NCBI GenBank assembly: GCA_025356475.1 | Contig: JANXSX010000226.1 | Coordinates: forward strand, 1-52,930 | Reading direction: 5' to 3' | From: Isosphaeraceae bacterium | GTDB taxonomy: Bacteria > Planctomycetota > Planctomycetia > Isosphaerales > Isosphaeraceae | Length of the DNA stretch: 52,930 nucleotides | Part shown: piece after piece, positions 44,438 to 52,641 of the stretch | Numbering within the stretch: the stretch's first letter is position 1 | How the letters are laid out: every line of letters starts with the position of its first letter | Translations under genes and position numbers: made by a program | The notes under the pieces: model-generated | Database searches by the model: none | What the model was told of the DNA's origin: nothing | Seen by the model: only the letters and a program-made list of their open reading frames with translations

Positions 44438-45094
44438 TCAAACCGACAAGCCCGCCCAGACTGGGGCGCTCTGCTCGTACCTGGTGATTGCATGGTCGTT
44501 CAGAAGGGTCTCGGCAATGGCGTCGAGCCCTTTGAGGATCCGTTCACGGTTCCCCTCGGGAACGTCGAACGCGAACTCGATATCGCTGTTACCGTGCAGC
44601 GTGACTCGCTTACGAAGGAGGTCGATCGTGATCTCGGTCGGCCCAGTGCGCACGGCGGTCGCAATTGTCTCCCAATCGGCCTCGGGAAGTTCGATCGGTA
44701 AGAGGCCGTTGTTGAGGGCATTTCCTTCGAAGATGTCGGCGAATCCATCATCTTTGCCCGGGGCAATCACAGCACGATAGCCTGCCTGCGCAACTGCCCA
44801 GACCGCATGCTCACGACTCGATCCACACCCGAAGTTGCGACCGACGATCAAGATCGTCGCATCCTGATTTGCCGACGCGTTGAGGGGGAAATCAGATGCA
44901 AGTTCCCCATGGCTTTCAGGATGATCGGGGTCGGGAGCTCCACCTGGGACGTATCGCTTATCGGCAAATAGCAGGGGTCCATAGCCGGTGCGTTCGATCC
45001 GTTTGAGGTAGCGAGCGGGGATGATCAAGTCGGTGTTAACGTCCGACCAATCGAGCAGGGCCGCTCTGCCTCGATACGTGAGGAATGCTTCCAT
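44438..45094 (-). CDS. leuD: 3-isopropylmalate dehydratase small subunit
   Basis: Small subunit of isopropylmalate isomerase in leucine synthesis. The 218-residue protein has the swivelling-domain motifs NTDLIIPARYLKRI and GRNFGCGSSREHAVWA. It follows leuC with a 4-base gap on the same strand, so the two subunits are made together. The C-terminal 15 residues or so are variable in the family. The other leucine genes (leuA, leuB) are not in the window. Confidence 0.95.
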   Translation of the reverse strand: MEAFLTYRGRAALLDWSDVNTDLIIPARYLKRIERTGYGPLLFADKRYVPGGAPDPDHPESHGELASDFPLNASANQDATILIVGRNFGCGSSREHAVWAVAQAGYRAVIAPGKDDGFADIFEGNALNNGLLPIELPEADWETIATAVRTGPTEITIDLLRKRVTLHGNSDIEFAFDVPEGNRERILKGLDAIAETLLNDHAITRYEQSAPVWAGLSV

Positions 45095-45098
45095 CGGG

Positions 45099-46520
45099 TC
45101 AGACTCCTTGGCTCAAAAGGGTGCGAACATCGGTAAACTTGCCTGTCACGGCTGCTGCGGCTGCCATCGCAGCGCTGACCAGATGGGTCCGACCGCCCGG
45201 CCCTTGGCGACCCTCGAAATTTCGGTTACTCGTACTGGCGGAACGCTGGCCAGGAGTCAACTTATCTGGATTCATTGCCAGACACATACTACAACCCGCT
45301 TGCCTCCACTCGGCCCCAGCCTCCGTAAAGACCCGGTCGAGCCCTTCGGCAATCGCCTGCTCGCGGACCGGCTCGCTGCCAGGAACGATCAGGGCCCGGA
45401 CACCCGCCGCGACCTTGCGACCACGGAAGACCTGCGCCGCTGAACGAAGATCTTCAATTCGGCCATTCGTACAGGATCCGATGAAGACGATGTCGATGGG
45501 TATCTCGCTGATGGGAGTGCCCGGTGTCAACCCCATGTATTCGAGTGATCTCCGAGCATCCTCGCGACTGGTAAAAGGGACCTGATCAGGCTCGGGAATG
45601 CGCCCGGTCACATCCACGGTCATCGCAGGATTCGTGCCCCAAGTTACTTGAGGTACGAGTGAGGATGCATCGATCGTCACAATTCGATCAAACGCGGAAG
45701 GATCGTCGGTCTGAAGTAGCTTCCAGTCGGCAAGTGCCGACTCCAGGGCGGCCCCCGTGGGAGCAAACGGTCGCTTTGTCGCAGTAATATACTGGATCGT
45801 GGTGTCGTCCGGAGCGATCAAACCAGCCCGGGCTCCGGCCTCGATCGACATGTTGCAGACCGTCATCCGTCCTTCCATCGACATCGCGGAAATCGCCGGT
45901 CCGTAGTACTCCAGAACGTGCCCGGTCGCGCCTCCGGTGCCGATCGCACGAATCACGGCAAGAATGATATCCTTGGGTTCGAGCCCAGCGGGGAGCTTGC
46001 CCTTGACCTCAATCCCGAGTGCCTTGGGGGTCTTCCCCTGCCAGAGGGTCTGGGTCGCCAGGACATGCTCGACCTCGCTGGTACCGATCCCGAATGCGAG
46101 CGAACCGAACGCGCCATGTGTGCTCGTGTGACTATCACCGCAGACAATAGTCAGGCCAGGAAGAGTCAAGCCAAGCTCAGGGCCGATGACGTGAACGATT
46201 CCCTGGCGACCGCTCCCCATGTCGTACAAGGTGACGCCAAACTCTTTGGCGTTCGTGCGAAGAGCCTCGACCTGACGCTTCGACATGGGCTCGCGAATGT
46301 CGAGTTGATTCTCGGTCGGCACGTTGTGGTCAAGTGTGGCGAACGTTAACTCAGGGCGGCGAACCTTCCGACCGCTGAGCCGGAGCCCCTCGAATGCCTG
46401 GGGGCTCGTGACCTCATGGACGAGGTGTCGATCAATATAGAGGAGGGTCGCGTCCTCAGTGACGGTCACAACGTGACGTTTCCAGACCTTATGAAACAAC
46501 GTATCAGGGGCGGAAGGCAT
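45099..46520 (-). CDS. leuC: 3-isopropylmalate dehydratase large subunit
   Basis: Aconitase-family Fe-S enzyme. ATG 46520 gives 473 residues, matching usual LeuC length; the longer frame upstream adds 23 residues without similarity. It begins with the conserved [12 protein letters not shown]. [4Fe-4S] ligands are Cys350 in GSCTNG and Cys410 and Cys413 in AGCSMC. The substrate region [15 protein letters not shown] is intact. GAGGAG lies just upstream of the start. Divergent from the secreted protein at 46728. Confidence 0.96.
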
Positions 46521-46727
46521 CCCTCGACTCCTCAGAATTCGGCACTTCAGGCATTCAGGGCGGTGAGCCGCCTCGCAACGCTCAGCCACACCCTCTGACC
46601 ATACAGGATACCAAATGTCCCCTGCGGGTTCACGCCCTGCAAGCCGCCTTGACCCATCGTTGGGCCTCCGCTAGTGTACGCAAGTCCCCAATGGGATCCC
46701 CCTTCTCTCTTCTTCAAGGAGTCGTAA

Positions 46728-47277: not shown

Positions 47278-48210
47278 TTATGCGTCGACGTGGTGGCTCG
47301 CCATCTCATCGGCGTGGTAACTCGAACGAACGAACGGACCGCTCGCGACTTCGAGGAATCCGAGTCCTCTGGCAATCCGACCGAGTTCGTCGAACTCTGA
47401 GGGTGGTAAGTAACGCTGAACGGCCAGATGCTTGGGTGAGGGTTGCAAATACTGGCCCAGTGTTAGGAAGTCGCAGCCTACTGCGCGAAGATCCGCCAAA
47501 GTATCGATGATCTCCTCGGTCGTCTCGCCCAGCCCAAGCATCAGGCCACTCTTCGTGCGTATGCCACCGCCGAGCTGCTTGGCAAGTTCGAGAACCTTGA
47601 GGCTAATCGCATACTGACTTTTTCGACGGACATACTGCTGGAGCCGGGCCACCGTCTCCATATTGTGATTGAAGACCTCCGGGCGGGCTGAGAGCACAAT
47701 CCGGATCGATTCGGGATCGCCTTCGAAGTCCGGCGTAAGCACCTCGATCGTCGCGCCAGTTCGGAGCCGGACCGCCTCCACACACTTTTTGAAGTGGTCG
47801 GCACCACCATCGGCAAGGTCATCTCGGGTCACGGAAGTAATTACGACATGCTTGAGCCCTAATCGGAAGCAGGCTTCCGCCAGGCGATCAGGCTCGTCGA
47901 GAGCGACCTCCTCAGGCTTGCCCCGCTTGACCGCACAGAAGCCACAAGGGCGAGTGCAGGTCTCACCCAGAATCATGAACGTAGCAGTTCGCCGGGTCCA
48001 GCACTCCGAACGATTCGGGCACTTGCCACTCTCACAGATGGTCTCAAGACCGAGTTCAGCGACCAAGCTCTTGGTGAAATATGTCCCCCCCGCCTCCGGA
48101 AGCGGTCGCTTGAGCCATTCCGGCAACCGGCGTCTCGGTGCGGACACGACATCTTCCGAGGACAAGATAGGCAAGCTGGGGGCATTATCCAAGACTGGGA
48201 GCGTAGACAT
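47278..48210 (-). CDS. lipA: Lipoyl synthase
   Basis: Radical-SAM enzyme that inserts two sulfur atoms into octanoyl groups on E2 and H proteins. The 310-residue protein has the auxiliary cluster ligands Cys59, Cys64 and Cys70 (ICESGKCPNRSEC) and the radical-SAM motif Cys85-x3-Cys89-x2-Cys92 (ETCTRPCGFC). The C-terminal RSSYHADE contains the conserved Ser near the auxiliary cluster. Its start overlaps the end of the lipB-like gene by 26 bases, so they are coupled. All residues needed for activity appear to be present. Confidence 0.96.
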   Translation of the reverse strand: MSTLPVLDNAPSLPILSSEDVVSAPRRRLPEWLKRPLPEAGGTYFTKSLVAELGLETICESGKCPNRSECWTRRTATFMILGETCTRPCGFCAVKRGKPEEVALDEPDRLAEACFRLGLKHVVITSVTRDDLADGGADHFKKCVEAVRLRTGATIEVLTPDFEGDPESIRIVLSARPEVFNHNMETVARLQQYVRRKSQYAISLKVLELAKQLGGGIRTKSGLMLGLGETTEEIIDTLADLRAVGCDFLTLGQYLQPSPKHLAVQRYLPPSEFDELGRIARGLGFLEVASGPFVRSSYHADEMASHHVDA

Positions 48211-48925
48211 GTGCCCTCGGCTTCCGCCGGATTAGCGGATGATCGGTATAGAGATGATGCTGTTCCACGCCAAATCTTAGCTCGATGTGACGGATCAGGG
48301 ATTCTCGGACCTTCGCCATCGGGGTCGGCCTCTGTCTCCAGGCTTCCATCGAGGTTTGGCGGAGTGAGTGGCCAGCCGAGCCTGGCTCATTGAGGACGAG
48401 GTCGAACGGATCGAGGTAAGTTGCCACATTCAACGTTCCTCCATGATAGGCAATCCAGCGATTCACGGCCACACCCAGCGAGGCCACTCGCGACGGTCCG
48501 AGGTACACTCCAGAAACCTCAGTGCCCACATGTCCCCGAAGTTCAAACTCGCCCAGAAGATCGACGAGTGCGCCCGAAAGTCGATCGAGATACAAACGGA
48601 GATTTAGTGTTTGGGGGTTGAGCCCGAGCACGAGATAGAACGAAAGCTGACCGGGAAGATGGAGCACACAGCCCCCTCCTCGGTTCACCCACCGGACTGG
48701 CAAGCCCCACGACTTCAATTGATCATCGTCGGGTCGGATATGGGCCCGGCTGCCGACTCGACCCACACTGATGGTTGGTGGATGTTCGCACAGGATCAGC
48801 GCCGCACCGCCCTGTTCGGTAAGGTCGTAGACGAGCCTTCGCTGGAGACGAAGCGCCTCTTCAAGTTCTATGATCCCAAGGAGATAGACTTCCAGATGGG
48901 TCGAAGGCGGAGGAGTCGAAATCAC
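48185..48925 (-). CDS. lipB: LipB-like octanoyltransferase lacking catalytic Cys and Lys
   Basis: 246 residues of the LipB fold, which normally moves octanoate from ACP onto lipoyl domains through an acyl-Cys intermediate. Aligned by eye to E. coli LipB, His89 (RGGGCVLHLPGQL) and the YHG motif (160-162) are kept. The catalytic Lys is Arg146 (GPSRVASLG) and the nucleophile Cys is Pro181 (LNEPGSAG instead of INPCGYAG), with no gap needed. The only nearby cysteine is Cys86 in RGGGC. Either the protein uses another nucleophile or it is a non-catalytic relative. Same strand and order as DHH gene-lipB-lipA. Assignment to the family is firm, activity is doubtful. Confidence 0.85.
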   Translation of the reverse strand: MISTPPPSTHLEVYLLGIIELEEALRLQRRLVYDLTEQGGAALILCEHPPTISVGRVGSRAHIRPDDDQLKSWGLPVRWVNRGGGCVLHLPGQLSFYLVLGLNPQTLNLRLYLDRLSGALVDLLGEFELRGHVGTEVSGVYLGPSRVASLGVAVNRWIAYHGGTLNVATYLDPFDLVLNEPGSAGHSLRQTSMEAWRQRPTPMAKVRESLIRHIELRFGVEQHHLYTDHPLIRRKPRAHVYAPSLG

Positions 48926-49050: not shown

Positions 49051-50118
49051 TTAGAGCGAGGGGAGCATGGGAGATGCTTCCAGGAGCCGACGCCCCTGAT
49101 CCCGTGGGATGCCTAACTCATCAAGGAGCCGCTGACGGATGGTTTTCAGAAGGGGGTCGATGGTCTCTGGGCGTTCGTTGGGGATTGGGATTGCCCCACC
49201 AGCCCGTTTGTCGTGGCCACCGGCGGTCCCTAGGCCTTCGAGGACATCTCGGAGAAGTTCTCCGGCGTGCCCTCCGAGATGGTTCACTCGCATTGAGAGT
49301 TTCAGGACCCCGTCACACAGACCGAGACAGACGACCCACTCTACCTTCTCAAACCGGATGAAGAAGTCTGCCATTTCCGCGATGATATCGGGCTGTGTCA
49401 CGTGCCCGCAGAAGCTGACGATCAAATTTCCATAAACGAAGGCATTTGCCAGCGAATGTTGAACCGTGGCAAAATGACTCTGAGGGAGCTTGGGATTCTT
49501 GATCTGGGCGAGCAGATCCTTGTCGGCGCGAGGGAAGAGCCAGACAAGCGCCCCATCGTCGGTCGGGCCGGCTTCTCTAGGAAACCCGGCAACTTCACTC
49601 TCGATTCCGTAGAGCAGTGCCGTCGCGAGTCGCCCTGTCACAGGCACATTCGATTCCAGAAGGTAGCCCGTCACGATCGTCGAGGTCGCACCCATCTGAG
49701 GCCGGATGTCGCGAAACAAGACCCCTTCCAGTAACCCACCCGTCTCATGGTGGTCGAGAACCACCTGGGGCCTCGCCGCCTCGCTCGCTCTTCTTCCGGT
49801 GTGTGGCTGAGTGTCAACCATCACGACCGCAGTCTCTGGTGTGATGGCGGCCTGATCGACCGGTACCAAATGGATTGGAATCAAGTCGACCATCGCCTGA
49901 TTCTCAGCCCGGGCAATCATCCCATCCATCGTGAGAGTGATCGGCTTGCCCGGCTGTTTGGATTCGATCAGTGCTTTGAGCCCAAGCATACTCGCCAGGG
50001 CGTCCGGGTCCGGGTTGACGTGGGACACGAACACGACCTCGCGAAAGGGCGCAAGGGTCGCGAGAAAACGCTCAGCACGGCCACGACGCTGCGGGTTGGG
50101 CTCGACTTCGACACTCAT
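49051..50118 (-). CDS. DHH-family phosphoesterase (NrnA/pAp-phosphatase-like)
   Basis: 355 residues. DHH domain motifs are VSHVNPDPDALASM (His33, Asp37, Asp39), VVMVDTQP and VLDHHETGG. The DHHA1-type C-terminal motif is GTAGGHDKRAGGAIP. NrnA-like members degrade short oligonucleotides (nanoRNA) or dephosphorylate pAp; membership of this group rather than the c-di-AMP phosphodiesterases is inferred from the stand-alone architecture without membrane or PAS domains. Upstream of lipB on the same strand, with a gap of about 125 bp. Confidence 0.85.
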   Translation of the reverse strand: MSVEVEPNPQRRGRAERFLATLAPFREVVFVSHVNPDPDALASMLGLKALIESKQPGKPITLTMDGMIARAENQAMVDLIPIHLVPVDQAAITPETAVVMVDTQPHTGRRASEAARPQVVLDHHETGGLLEGVLFRDIRPQMGATSTIVTGYLLESNVPVTGRLATALLYGIESEVAGFPREAGPTDDGALVWLFPRADKDLLAQIKNPKLPQSHFATVQHSLANAFVYGNLIVSFCGHVTQPDIIAEMADFFIRFEKVEWVVCLGLCDGVLKLSMRVNHLGGHAGELLRDVLEGLGTAGGHDKRAGGAIPIPNERPETIDPLLKTIRQRLLDELGIPRDQGRRLLEASPMLPSL

Positions 50119-50719: not shown

Positions 50720-50950
50720 CGGGTTCGCTGTTTGGAGTTCGGGGTGACCACTCAGGTACTCGCGGAGAGCAGCGTTAACAGCGTCTTCGTCCGCGAAAGC
50801 CGCAGACACGTCAGCCGCGAGCCGGACCACGCGTAACCGCTCCTGATAGCGCGCCGCATACTTGCCACGGACAACGCCACGCATCGAGCGGAAGTCATAT
50901 TCCGGCTGAATGTCGTCGCTCGACCCCGGCCCGTCAGGGGAAGTTGCCAT
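50714..50950 (-). CDS. BrnA-like antitoxin of a toxin-antitoxin pair
   Basis: 78 residues from ATG 50950 (80 from the in-frame ATG at 50956). The acidic N-terminus SSDDIQPEYDFRSM is followed by GVVRGKYAARYQERLRVV and a C-terminal DVSAAFADEDAVNAALREYL. This pattern is common in antitoxins encoded downstream of BrnT toxins: a short DNA-binding or toxin-wrapping protein. The start overlaps the toxin gene by 17 bases. Its stop lies inside the attC-like site. Presumed to neutralise the toxin and repress the operon. Confidence 0.75.
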   Translation of the reverse strand: MATSPDGPGSSDDIQPEYDFRSMRGVVRGKYAARYQERLRVVRLAADVSAAFADEDAVNAALREYLSGHPELQTANPA

Positions 50951-51215
50951 CCTCATAGTCCTTTCGTTCTCGCCGAGTCGCTACCCGTGCGCTGATGATG
51001 CGGATCAAATTGTCGCGATCCGTATGAGAGACCACCAGCAGCCGACCGGCGAGCGACGTACCCATCGTCAGGAAACGATCCTCATCGTCGGCATGTTTGG
51101 GATCGTAGCCCGTGACCGAGATCGGATCGCCGAACACCGTCATAGCTTCCGAGAAGGTGACGCCGTGCTTCCGCTCATTCGCTTCGGCTTTGGCATCATC
51201 CCACTCGAAATCCAT
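50934..51215 (-). CDS. brnT: BrnT-family ribonuclease toxin
   Basis: 93 residues from ATG 51215. It begins MDFEWDDAKAEANERKHGVT, the BrnT signature ('F.WD..KA..N..KHGV.F'), followed by DPISVTGYDPKHADDEDRF, LLVVSHTDRDNLIRIISAR and RRERKDYE, all family motifs. BrnT toxins are small RelE-like RNases that stop translation. The toxin gene precedes the antitoxin, as in the known brnTA order. An in-frame ATG at 51233 would add six residues. Confidence 0.88.
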   Translation of the reverse strand: MDFEWDDAKAEANERKHGVTFSEAMTVFGDPISVTGYDPKHADDEDRFLTMGTSLAGRLLVVSHTDRDNLIRIISARVATRRERKDYEDGNFP

Positions 51216-51256
51216 CTTGCCCCTCCGACCCACAGCATACCAGATGAGTTGCTGAG

Positions 51257-51631: not shown

Positions 51632-52641
51632 GAGCGGTTCACGCCTGCATTACGCACGATCCGACTTGTCGGAACCAACCCAGGATGTCCTGAATGGTGA
51701 CTCCACTCAAGGCCTCACCAATTGCGTCGTAGAGATGATCCTTGGCCCGAGCCCCAAGTCGCCGAAGCGCCTCCTTGAACTTTGAGAACATCTCCTCGAT
51801 CGGATTGAAGTCCGGGCTGTACGGCGGCAGCGGCAGCACTCTCGCTCCTGTTCGCTCGATCGCCTCGGTCACTTCCGGCCTCAGGTGCGCCGCCAGGTTG
51901 TCGAAGATCACCACGTCTCCTTTGCGCAATGCCGGCACCAACACTTGCTCCACGTAAGACTGGAAAGTCGCGGCAGTGGTGCCGCCGGGAAATGCCAGTG
52001 GGGCACGAATTCCATTCAGGCCCATCGCCGCGATCACCGTCACCGACTCCCACGATGCCGGGGCCGACGCCTCCACCCGCTCGCCTTTGGGAGCCCGGCC
52101 ATAGGCGGGCGTCATCGCCGTCGTGACACCGGTTTCGTCCACGAAAACAAGCCGCTTGGGCTCGATCGACTCGACCTCTTCGAGGAACAAGCGACGCTCC
52201 TCCTGAACATCCGGCCGGTCCCGCTCGCTGGCGTGCAGGGTCTTCTTCTTGCGAGTGATACCGAGCTTCTCCAACCCTCGCCAGACGATCATGATGCTGC
52301 CGGAGATGCCCAAGTTCTGCCTGTGTTGTTCGAGCGTGGCGTCGGGAGTCTCCTTGACGAGTTTTCGCAAGCGTTCCAAGCCCTCTTGATCGAGGGTCGG
52401 CTCGATCCCGCCGGCGTGCGGCCTGGGGTTGAACGTTCCCGTCTCGCGACGGAGTTGGAGGAGTCGGGTGATGGTCGAGACATTGACAGAGAACCGTGCG
52501 GCGAGTTGGCGGCGAGAGCCTTCGTGGCGATCGATGGCGGCCAGGATACGTTCGCGGAGATCATTCGACAGCGCTTTCATGAGTCGCCTCCTTTCGAAGA
52601 TCTCGTATTCAAATCGTGTGCCAAGCGAAGGTGAACCGCTC
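51632..52641 (-). mobile_element. Intact IS630-family insertion sequence
   Basis: Terminal inverted repeats GAGCGGTTCAC (51632) and GTGAACCGCTC (ending 52641) are perfect. Each is flanked by TA, as expected for IS630 elements, which duplicate a TA target. Total 1010 bp, with one transposase gene filling it. It looks recently inserted because the ends and the gene are undamaged. Confidence 0.88.
51639..52580 (-). CDS. IS630-family transposase
   Basis: 313 residues. The N-terminal helix-turn-helix (RRQLAARFSVNVSTITRLLQ) and a winged second domain precede the DDE catalytic domain. The DDE residues lie in VFVDETGVTTA, VIFDNLAAHL and YSPDFNPIEEMFSKFKE, the usual IS630 spacing. It is complete and could be active. 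Its last codons reach into the left terminal repeat. Confidence 0.95.
   Translation of the reverse strand: MKALSNDLRERILAAIDRHEGSRRQLAARFSVNVSTITRLLQLRRETGTFNPRPHAGGIEPTLDQEGLERLRKLVKETPDATLEQHRQNLGISGSIMIVWRGLEKLGITRKKKTLHASERDRPDVQEERRLFLEEVESIEPKRLVFVDETGVTTAMTPAYGRAPKGERVEASAPASWESVTVIAAMGLNGIRAPLAFPGGTTAATFQSYVEQVLVPALRKGDVVIFDNLAAHLRPEVTEAIERTGARVLPLPPYSPDFNPIEEMFSKFKEALRRLGARAKDHLYDAIGEALSGVTIQDILGWFRQVGSCVMQA

Follow-up and report, generated by a model that had tools for sequence, protein, structure and literature searches.

A LipB-fold protein encoded beside lipoyl synthase

The window analysed here, a contig of 52,930 nucleotides from an Isosphaeraceae bacterium (JANXSX010000226.1), encodes on its reverse strand a 246-residue protein with a GTG start codon (48185..48925) that has the fold and the model score of the octanoyltransferase LipB and lacks its catalytic Cys/Lys dyad. 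We refer to this dyad-less LipB-fold protein as LipB*. The lipoyl synthase gene lipA (47278..48210, reverse strand; 310 residues; TIGR00510, 358 bits against a cut-off of 310.25) lies directly downstream, and its frame overlaps the 3′ end of the LipB* gene by 26 bases. On the upstream side, 125 bases away on the same strand, an open reading frame with Pfam matches encodes a DHH/DHHA1 phosphoesterase-family protein (49051..50118, reverse strand), which we list as a neighbour of the pair. Further out, all on the reverse strand, the window carries aconitase-family isomerase large and small subunit genes (44438-46589; PF00330 and PF00694), probably leuC and leuD, a BrnT-type toxin gene of a type II toxin–antitoxin system (50934-51233; PF04365, 95.9 bits) and, near the contig end, an IS630-type transposase (51639-52580; PF13358 and PF01710).

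A Pfam profile search finds a single domain in LipB*, the LplA/B catalytic domain PF21948 (101.5 bits, residues 22-214), and the NCBIfam LipB model TIGR00214 scores the protein at 84.6 bits, barely above its cut-off of 83.55; one relative from the same order (L043) scores 67 bits and falls under it. Among solved structures, the AlphaFold2 model of LipB* (pLDDT 91.1, pTM 0.88) most closely matches 2qhs (Z 29.5, rmsd 1.7 over 209 residues), followed by 1w66 (Z 26.0, rmsd 2.2 over 204 residues), and Foldseek likewise ranks these two structures first. The closest named relative, from an Isosphaeraceae bacterium, is 66% identical. The original prediction that this gene encodes a LipB homologue is thus borne out by both domain models and by structure comparison.

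The pairing with lipA extends well beyond the window. Among 92 dyad-less sequences, comprising 42 from the order (the window included) and 50 from other families of the class Planctomycetia, lipA lies directly downstream on the same strand in 89. At these 89 loci the LipA match starts −67 to +188 bases from the point where the LipB* frame ends. The three exceptions are two loci at which LipB* ends at a contig edge (L040 and L220) and one with lipA on another contig (L191, genome G317). This linkage is much stricter than that of sampled ordinary LipB genes, for which a LipA frame was found within the fetched stretch at 6 of 30 loci, these stretches being shorter than most others. Three order genomes without LipB* (G013, G024 and G036) have no real lipA match either; because both genes are absent, the LipB*–lipA operon probably falls in an assembly gap in each.

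LipB* has lost both catalytic residues

We aligned the 92 sequences with 31 ordinary LipB proteins: E. coli LipB, in what we take to be its reference sequence, and 30 loci from other classes of the phylum, a set that leans towards canonical LipB because it consists of the best-scoring TIGR00214 match per genome from 244 phylum genomes. On the presumed E. coli sequence, Arg146 of LipB* (codon 48488..48490, reverse strand) falls on the catalytic Lys135 and Pro181 (codon 48383..48385, reverse strand) falls on the catalytic Cys169. Both columns separate the two sets: the Lys and the Cys are each present in 31 of 31 ordinary LipBs and in 0 of 92 dyad-less sequences, one of which (L368) has a gap at the Cys column. 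Within the order, Arg146 is shared by 41 of the 42 members, with Gln in the other, and Pro181 likewise by 41, with Ala in one. Outside the order (n = 50), the Lys column holds Gln in 25 sequences, Arg in 8 and other residues in 17, and the Cys column holds Asp in 13, Gly in 12, Asn in 9 and others in 16, including the gap.

Alignment with planctomycete relatives, which the original prediction had proposed as a check, therefore upholds its claim that Pro181 and Arg146 replace the catalytic Cys and Lys, neither of which occurs in any of the 92 class sequences. A sequencing error at codons 146 and 181, one of the two ways out that had been foreseen, is countered by the presence of each substitution in 41 of 42 order members. 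Among the 92 sequences we found no shifted dyad with both residues. The placement of residues against E. coli LipB also stood, but the alignment is not ungapped throughout as had been described: LipB* of the window carries one extra residue, Val177, which is absent from 39 of 41 order relatives.

Single residues close to the lost positions do occur. Eight of the 50 class sequences, and none of the 42 order sequences, carry a Cys one residue ahead of the Cys column; seven of these lie in a CDG motif within one clade (L202, L205, L206, L207, L209, L210 and L214), and all eight lack the Lys. In the CDG clade, the off-register Cys may possibly be a nucleophile that was retained or acquired anew. 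Order members lack any Cys up to five residues from position 181 (0 of 42), and three of them (L043 to L045) carry a Lys one residue ahead of the Lys column. The Cys/Lys dyad is the catalytic pair of LipB, and a double mutant is reported to be inactive (PMC9307952).

The gene itself is under constraint. Across 10 order pairs, some sharing members, dN/dS of LipB* ranges from 0.008 to 0.179, much like that of LipA at the same loci (0.027-0.125). In-frame TGA codons in two relatives (G006 and G338) could be taken as signs of a pseudogene, sequencing error or misalignment, an explanation already refuted by the recurrence of the same substitutions in 41 of 42 order genomes, by these dN/dS values and by the other 41 order genomes with LipB*, in which no stop falls within the match. 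Neither error nor pseudogene formation accounts for LipB*. A tree of 106 proteins, unrooted and with a bootstrap that had not fully settled, contains a single 100/100 split between 40 ordinary and 66 dyad-less proteins, which suggests that the dyad was lost once, early, at the root of the class or before it, and did not decay repeatedly.

The acyl pocket of LipB* is retained

The motif RGGGCVLH (residues 82-89; 48659..48682, reverse strand) contains the kept RGG loop, Cys86 and His89. Across the dyad-less set, Arg82, Gly84 and Gly92 are each present in 92 of 92 sequences, Gln93 in 91, His89 in 90, Asn166 and Glu47 in 89 each and His48 in 88. The RGG loop and the pocket His (Arg71 and His78 in E. 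coli) are retained, as had been predicted for His89 and the fold motifs. Because the Cys column varies outside the order and Arg82, Gly92, Gln93 and His89 are almost or fully invariant, the catalytic loop appears to be unconstrained and the pocket constrained. Lipoyl contacts reported for LplA are Trp37, Val44, Arg70, Val77, His79 and His149, matched in E. coli LipB by Val41, Thr48, Arg71, Thr76, His78 and His150 (PMC9307952). By alignment, the equivalents in LipB* are Cys46, Ser53, Arg82, Val87, His89 and His161, of which His161 is the least kept (36 of 42 in the order, 17 of 40 in the class).

Positions 46 and 86 are the only columns at which Cys reaches 20 of the 92 sequences. Cys46 (codon 48788..48790, reverse strand) falls, by our alignment and published equivalences, on the lipoyl-contact position of LplA Trp37 and E. 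coli LipB Val41 (PMC9307952), and LplA Trp37 is described as sitting at the end of the substrate pocket (PMC12157495). This residue is Cys in 85 of 92 dyad-less sequences, a count that draws on whole-protein and profile searches and leaves out loci found with a Cys-containing pattern, against 8 of 31 ordinary LipBs; it is enriched in LipB* and not unique to it. Cys86 (codon 48668..48670, reverse strand) is Cys in 52 of 92 sequences, including 37 of 42 in the order, the other sequences having Ala, Thr, Val, Ser or Leu. In the alignment its counterparts are E. coli Val75 and M. tuberculosis Ile80, at a site whose listed contact neighbours are Thr76/Thr81 and His78/His83 in the E. coli and M. tuberculosis enzymes (PMC9307952); as a strand neighbour of these contact residues, Cys86 should face away from the pocket. 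By homology, Cys46 would occupy a pocket position and Cys86 would not, the side-chain directions being taken from published equivalences and not from model coordinates.

Two further LplA/B-fold proteins accompany LipB*

The source genome encodes three PF21948 proteins, so the search for a second lipB, lipM or lplA that had been suggested with the original prediction yields two LplA/B-fold proteins besides LipB*. Across the order (n = 45), three matches per genome are found in 41 genomes, two in three and one in one. One of the two proteins (L003) carries a Cys followed by a Lys in the pattern that we take, from the Bacillus enzyme, to be the LipM motif. Both residues are present in 46 of 46 order rows, the source protein being counted twice, and in the class set the Cys occurs in 23 of 23 and the Lys in 22 of 23. 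In the source genome its gene follows gcvT, gcvH, gcvPA and gcvPB in a glycine-cleavage operon. We call it LipM-type on the strength of the Cys/Lys pattern and the operon, since no NCBIfam LipM model names it.

The other protein, which we call LplA-like, keeps the Lys in 43 of 43 rows (source protein again counted twice) and has no Cys in the loop that carries the LipM-type Cys; in the class set a Cys occurs elsewhere in 18 of 19. At least 24 of 35 order genomes carry an E2 gene on the contig of the LplA-like gene and no more than 6 kb from it (in G020 on the opposite strand), as judged by comparing match coordinates by eye. In genome G037, of the same family as the window (L363 3776-10417, forward strand), the LplA-like gene is followed by those for 2-oxoglutarate dehydrogenase E1 and E2 and for an E3-type reductase; its product might act as lipoyl relay enzyme or ligase of that complex. 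Near the LplA-like gene of the source genome, none of nine other frames of at least 200 residues within 12.7 kb encodes an E2. The same contig of the source genome (C125) carries SufB-type and ABC ATPase genes, probably for Fe–S cluster assembly (L361 2246-4623, reverse strand), and with them a winged-helix regulator gene (L361 4650-5294), roughly 4-7 kb from the LplA-like gene.

LipB* is widespread in the class Planctomycetia

We surveyed 45 genomes of the order and 148 of the class. LipB* is present in 42 of the 45 order genomes, one copy each, and in 115 of the 148 class genomes, a figure that comes from 117 matches less two ordinary LipBs. The 117 matches comprise 35 from the order and 82 others, of which 52 were read (50 LipB* and the 2 ordinary LipBs) and 30 are assigned to LipB* by score alone. 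The LipM-type protein occurs in 143 of 148 class genomes (144 matches, a few partial, less one cross-match in G311) and the LplA-like protein in 120 of 148 (125 matches less five of another type, three of these read and two, in G348 and G294, judged by score). GcvH is found in all 148, as is E2, strongly in 147 and at E 8.8e-4 in G289.

G300 and G311, the two genomes of the class that encode an ordinary LipB, have no LipM-type protein, LipB* or operon-type LplA-like protein, and carry an LplA-like protein of the other type. In G300 the ordinary LipB is fused in frame to LipA (L265 1705-3336, forward strand). This fusion was at one point considered as support for a partnership of LipB* with LipA and was dropped, the sequence being that of an ordinary LipB with the Lys and a PCG motif. 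Among the 33 class genomes without LipB*, 20 were searched for lipA: 18 have a match over the cut-off, G313 has lipA in two pieces and G024 has none. The presence of lipA in genomes without LipB* indicates that, outside the order, LipA is independent of LipB*.

The three LplA/B-fold proteins also occur in reduced sets. In G353 (100% complete, 220 contigs) LipB* is the sole LplA/B-fold protein found, together with lipA beside it, GcvH and E2; G302 has LipB* and an LplA-like protein and no LipM-type protein; and in G262 and G315 the LipM-type protein is the sole member of the fold. Such sets could be used to tell apart what each of the three proteins does. Taken together, the 148 genomes comprise 92 with both LipB* and an LplA-like protein, 23 with LipB* only, 28 with an LplA-like protein only and 5 with neither, as counted by eye with an LplA-like limit of E ~1e-40. 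Mutual exclusion of the two proteins, suggested by 37 genomes picked partly for having no LipB*, was rejected on these counts, which approximate independence. Of the 23 genomes without any LplA-like match (20 named, with G347, G350 and G353 added as missing from the match list), 21 have LipB*.

Discussion

LipB* shares with the LipBs of E. coli, M. tuberculosis (1W66) and T. thermophilus (2QHS) the fold, the RGG loop, the His, the PGQ motif and a gene beside lipA, but both residues of the Cys/Lys dyad are replaced and, outside the order, the loop of the Cys shows no constraint. Because the two defining residues are absent, we file LipB* as LipB-related and not as a LipB octanoyltransferase. 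LipM octanoyltransferase of the Bacillus subtilis type has superfamily and pathway in common with LipB*, and a LipM-pattern protein is encoded in the LipB* genome, but the Cys that LipM, as we take its motif to be, carries in the loop before the Lys is not conserved in LipB*. LipL and LIPT1 have the same fold (bovine lipoyltransferase 2e5a, Z 21.4), and LipB* would fill the same gap between GcvH and E2; by sequence, however, it belongs to the LipB branch, its gene is tied to lipA, and the NCBIfam LipL model is not among its matches at E up to 1. LplA lipoate ligase shares the superfamily and the lipoate-binding loop, with Cys46 falling on LplA Trp37 (PMC9307952), whereas LipB*, at 246 residues with one Pfam domain, is without the catalytic Lys, and no C-terminal accessory domain was found. 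LipB* moreover usually co-occurs with a LipM-type protein, whereas the combination of LipB and LipM is reported to be very rare (PMC10332631). Fold and family are known, and LipB* is probably something other than the textbook octanoyltransferase named in databases. In the open-licence literature searched, we recognised no description of a LipB without the dyad paired with LipA.

We tentatively favour, as a reading that falls a little short of likely, a scheme in which the LipM-type protein carries out octanoyl transfer and LipB*, as LipA's partner, takes hold of the octanoyl or lipoyl arm. LipB* would be a LipB descendant that has lost Cys/Lys octanoyl transfer, and the separate LipM-type transferase would put octanoyl on the glycine-cleavage H protein. 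Keeping the LipB fold and acyl pocket and made from the same operon as LipA, LipB* would work with LipA by binding the octanoyl- or lipoyl-lysine arm of carrier proteins, and would either present the arm to LipA or take over the finished lipoyl arm. An arm-binding protein for LipA is the simplest reading because the gene is constrained, the dyad is dropped, the pocket is kept and lipA lies directly downstream; the genome also encodes another LplA/B-fold protein, one with the Cys/Lys pattern of LipM. From these observations we infer an absence of acyltransferase activity, binding of the carrier arm and a physical partnership with LipA. In a more specific version, which we regard as improbable though worth stating, LipB* would hold the octanoyl arm with Cys46 at its C6/C8 end and keep or hand over the thiolated arm for LipA.

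Several genomes argue against a role as LipA partner. LipB* of G353 would itself have to perform transfer, since no other LplA/B-fold protein is found there, if none was missed. G302 is without a LipM-type protein, class genomes without LipB* have lipA, G262 and G315 have a LipM-type protein alone, and the eight class sequences in which a Cys precedes the catalytic column by one residue could keep a nucleophile. A non-catalytic partner for LipA, one of the two possibilities raised in the original prediction, is therefore consistent with the downstream lipA in 89 of 92 loci and not proved. The accompanying idea that transfer is done by an LplA-type ligase elsewhere holds in that other members of the fold are present, but the likely transferase is the LipM-type protein and not an LplA ligase.

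The main rival to the LipA-partner reading, rather unlikely in our estimate, is that LipB* has remained an acyl- or amidotransferase but works by an unconventional mechanism; most likely it would move octanoyl or lipoyl from GcvH to E2 lipoyl domains in the manner of LipL or LIPT1. Such relay enzymes are described in Bacillus (LipL) and mitochondria (LIPT1) (PMC7253636); LipL is reported not to occur in all LipM/LipA bacteria, in which unknown amidotransferases may substitute (PMC10332631), and its absence has been called a puzzle (PMC3917532). GcvH in all 148 class genomes and strong E2 matches in 147 would supply donor and acceptor, the acyl pocket is retained, LipB* is present in 21 of the 23 genomes without an LplA-like match and stands alone in G353, and in 8 of 50 class sequences a Cys lies one residue away from the catalytic column. 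Against this, no nucleophile near the carbonyl end is common to the family, only columns 46 and 86 reaching Cys in 20 of 92, and none of the 42 order sequences has a Cys within five residues of position 181. LipB* is linked to lipA, and linkage to E2 belongs instead to the LplA-like protein (24 or more of 35 order genomes, at a distance of up to 6 kb). Nor do the two proteins replace one another (92, 23, 28 and 5 of 148), and G262 and G315 have neither.

The remaining possibilities give LipB* a new nucleophile or no enzymatic role. Cys86 as a relocated nucleophile, the other possibility raised in the original prediction, is exceedingly improbable: it lies close to the conserved His89 in sequence, and 37 of 42 order members have Cys there, but the figure overall is 52 of 92, the residue would point off the acyl pocket at the place of E. 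coli Val75 and it has no conserved Lys partner at the catalytic place. Cys46 is a better-conserved candidate for a new octanoyltransferase nucleophile, at 85 of 92 against 8 of 31 and at a lipoyl-contact position (PMC9307952), and yet is very improbable in that role, as it matches LplA Trp37 at the pocket end, away from the acyl carbonyl (PMC12157495), and is absent from 7 of 92 sequences; its presence in dyad-intact LipBs (8 of 31) suggests that it may be a mere well-fitting pocket residue. We also see a slim chance that LipB* is a regulator, for example an octanoyl or lipoyl sensor tuning LipA or the operon, as a ligand pocket kept without the dyad, a tight operon link and structural matches to biotin-ligase relatives, among them the E. 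coli biotin repressor, might suggest; the single Pfam domain spanning residues 22-214, with no DNA-binding or extra domain, speaks against it.

These findings bear on how lipoyl assembly is read from planctomycete genomes. LipB is listed in one of six planctomycetes in Table 4 of an earlier survey (PMC3917532), and the NCBI LipB model names LipB* octanoyltransferase although the class sequences read, bar the two ordinary ones, lack the dyad. If LipB* has no transferase activity, a LipB/LipA route assigned to Planctomycetia from genome data would be a wrong call, and the route would be that of the LipM-type protein. LipB* is also a testable candidate for the protein that serves LipM/LipA bacteria without LipL, a gap noted in earlier work (PMC10332631, PMC3917532). 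Should the more specific version, with Cys46 at the C6/C8 end of the arm, be true despite its low probability, LipB* would be a former octanoyltransferase that is now a working part of the sulphur-insertion step, and three proteins of one fold would each have one partner: the LipM-type protein with GcvH, the LplA-like protein with 2-oxoglutarate dehydrogenase and LipB* with LipA. A conserved LipA-linked relative that keeps the pocket and has lost the dyad would represent a new organisation of lipoyl assembly.
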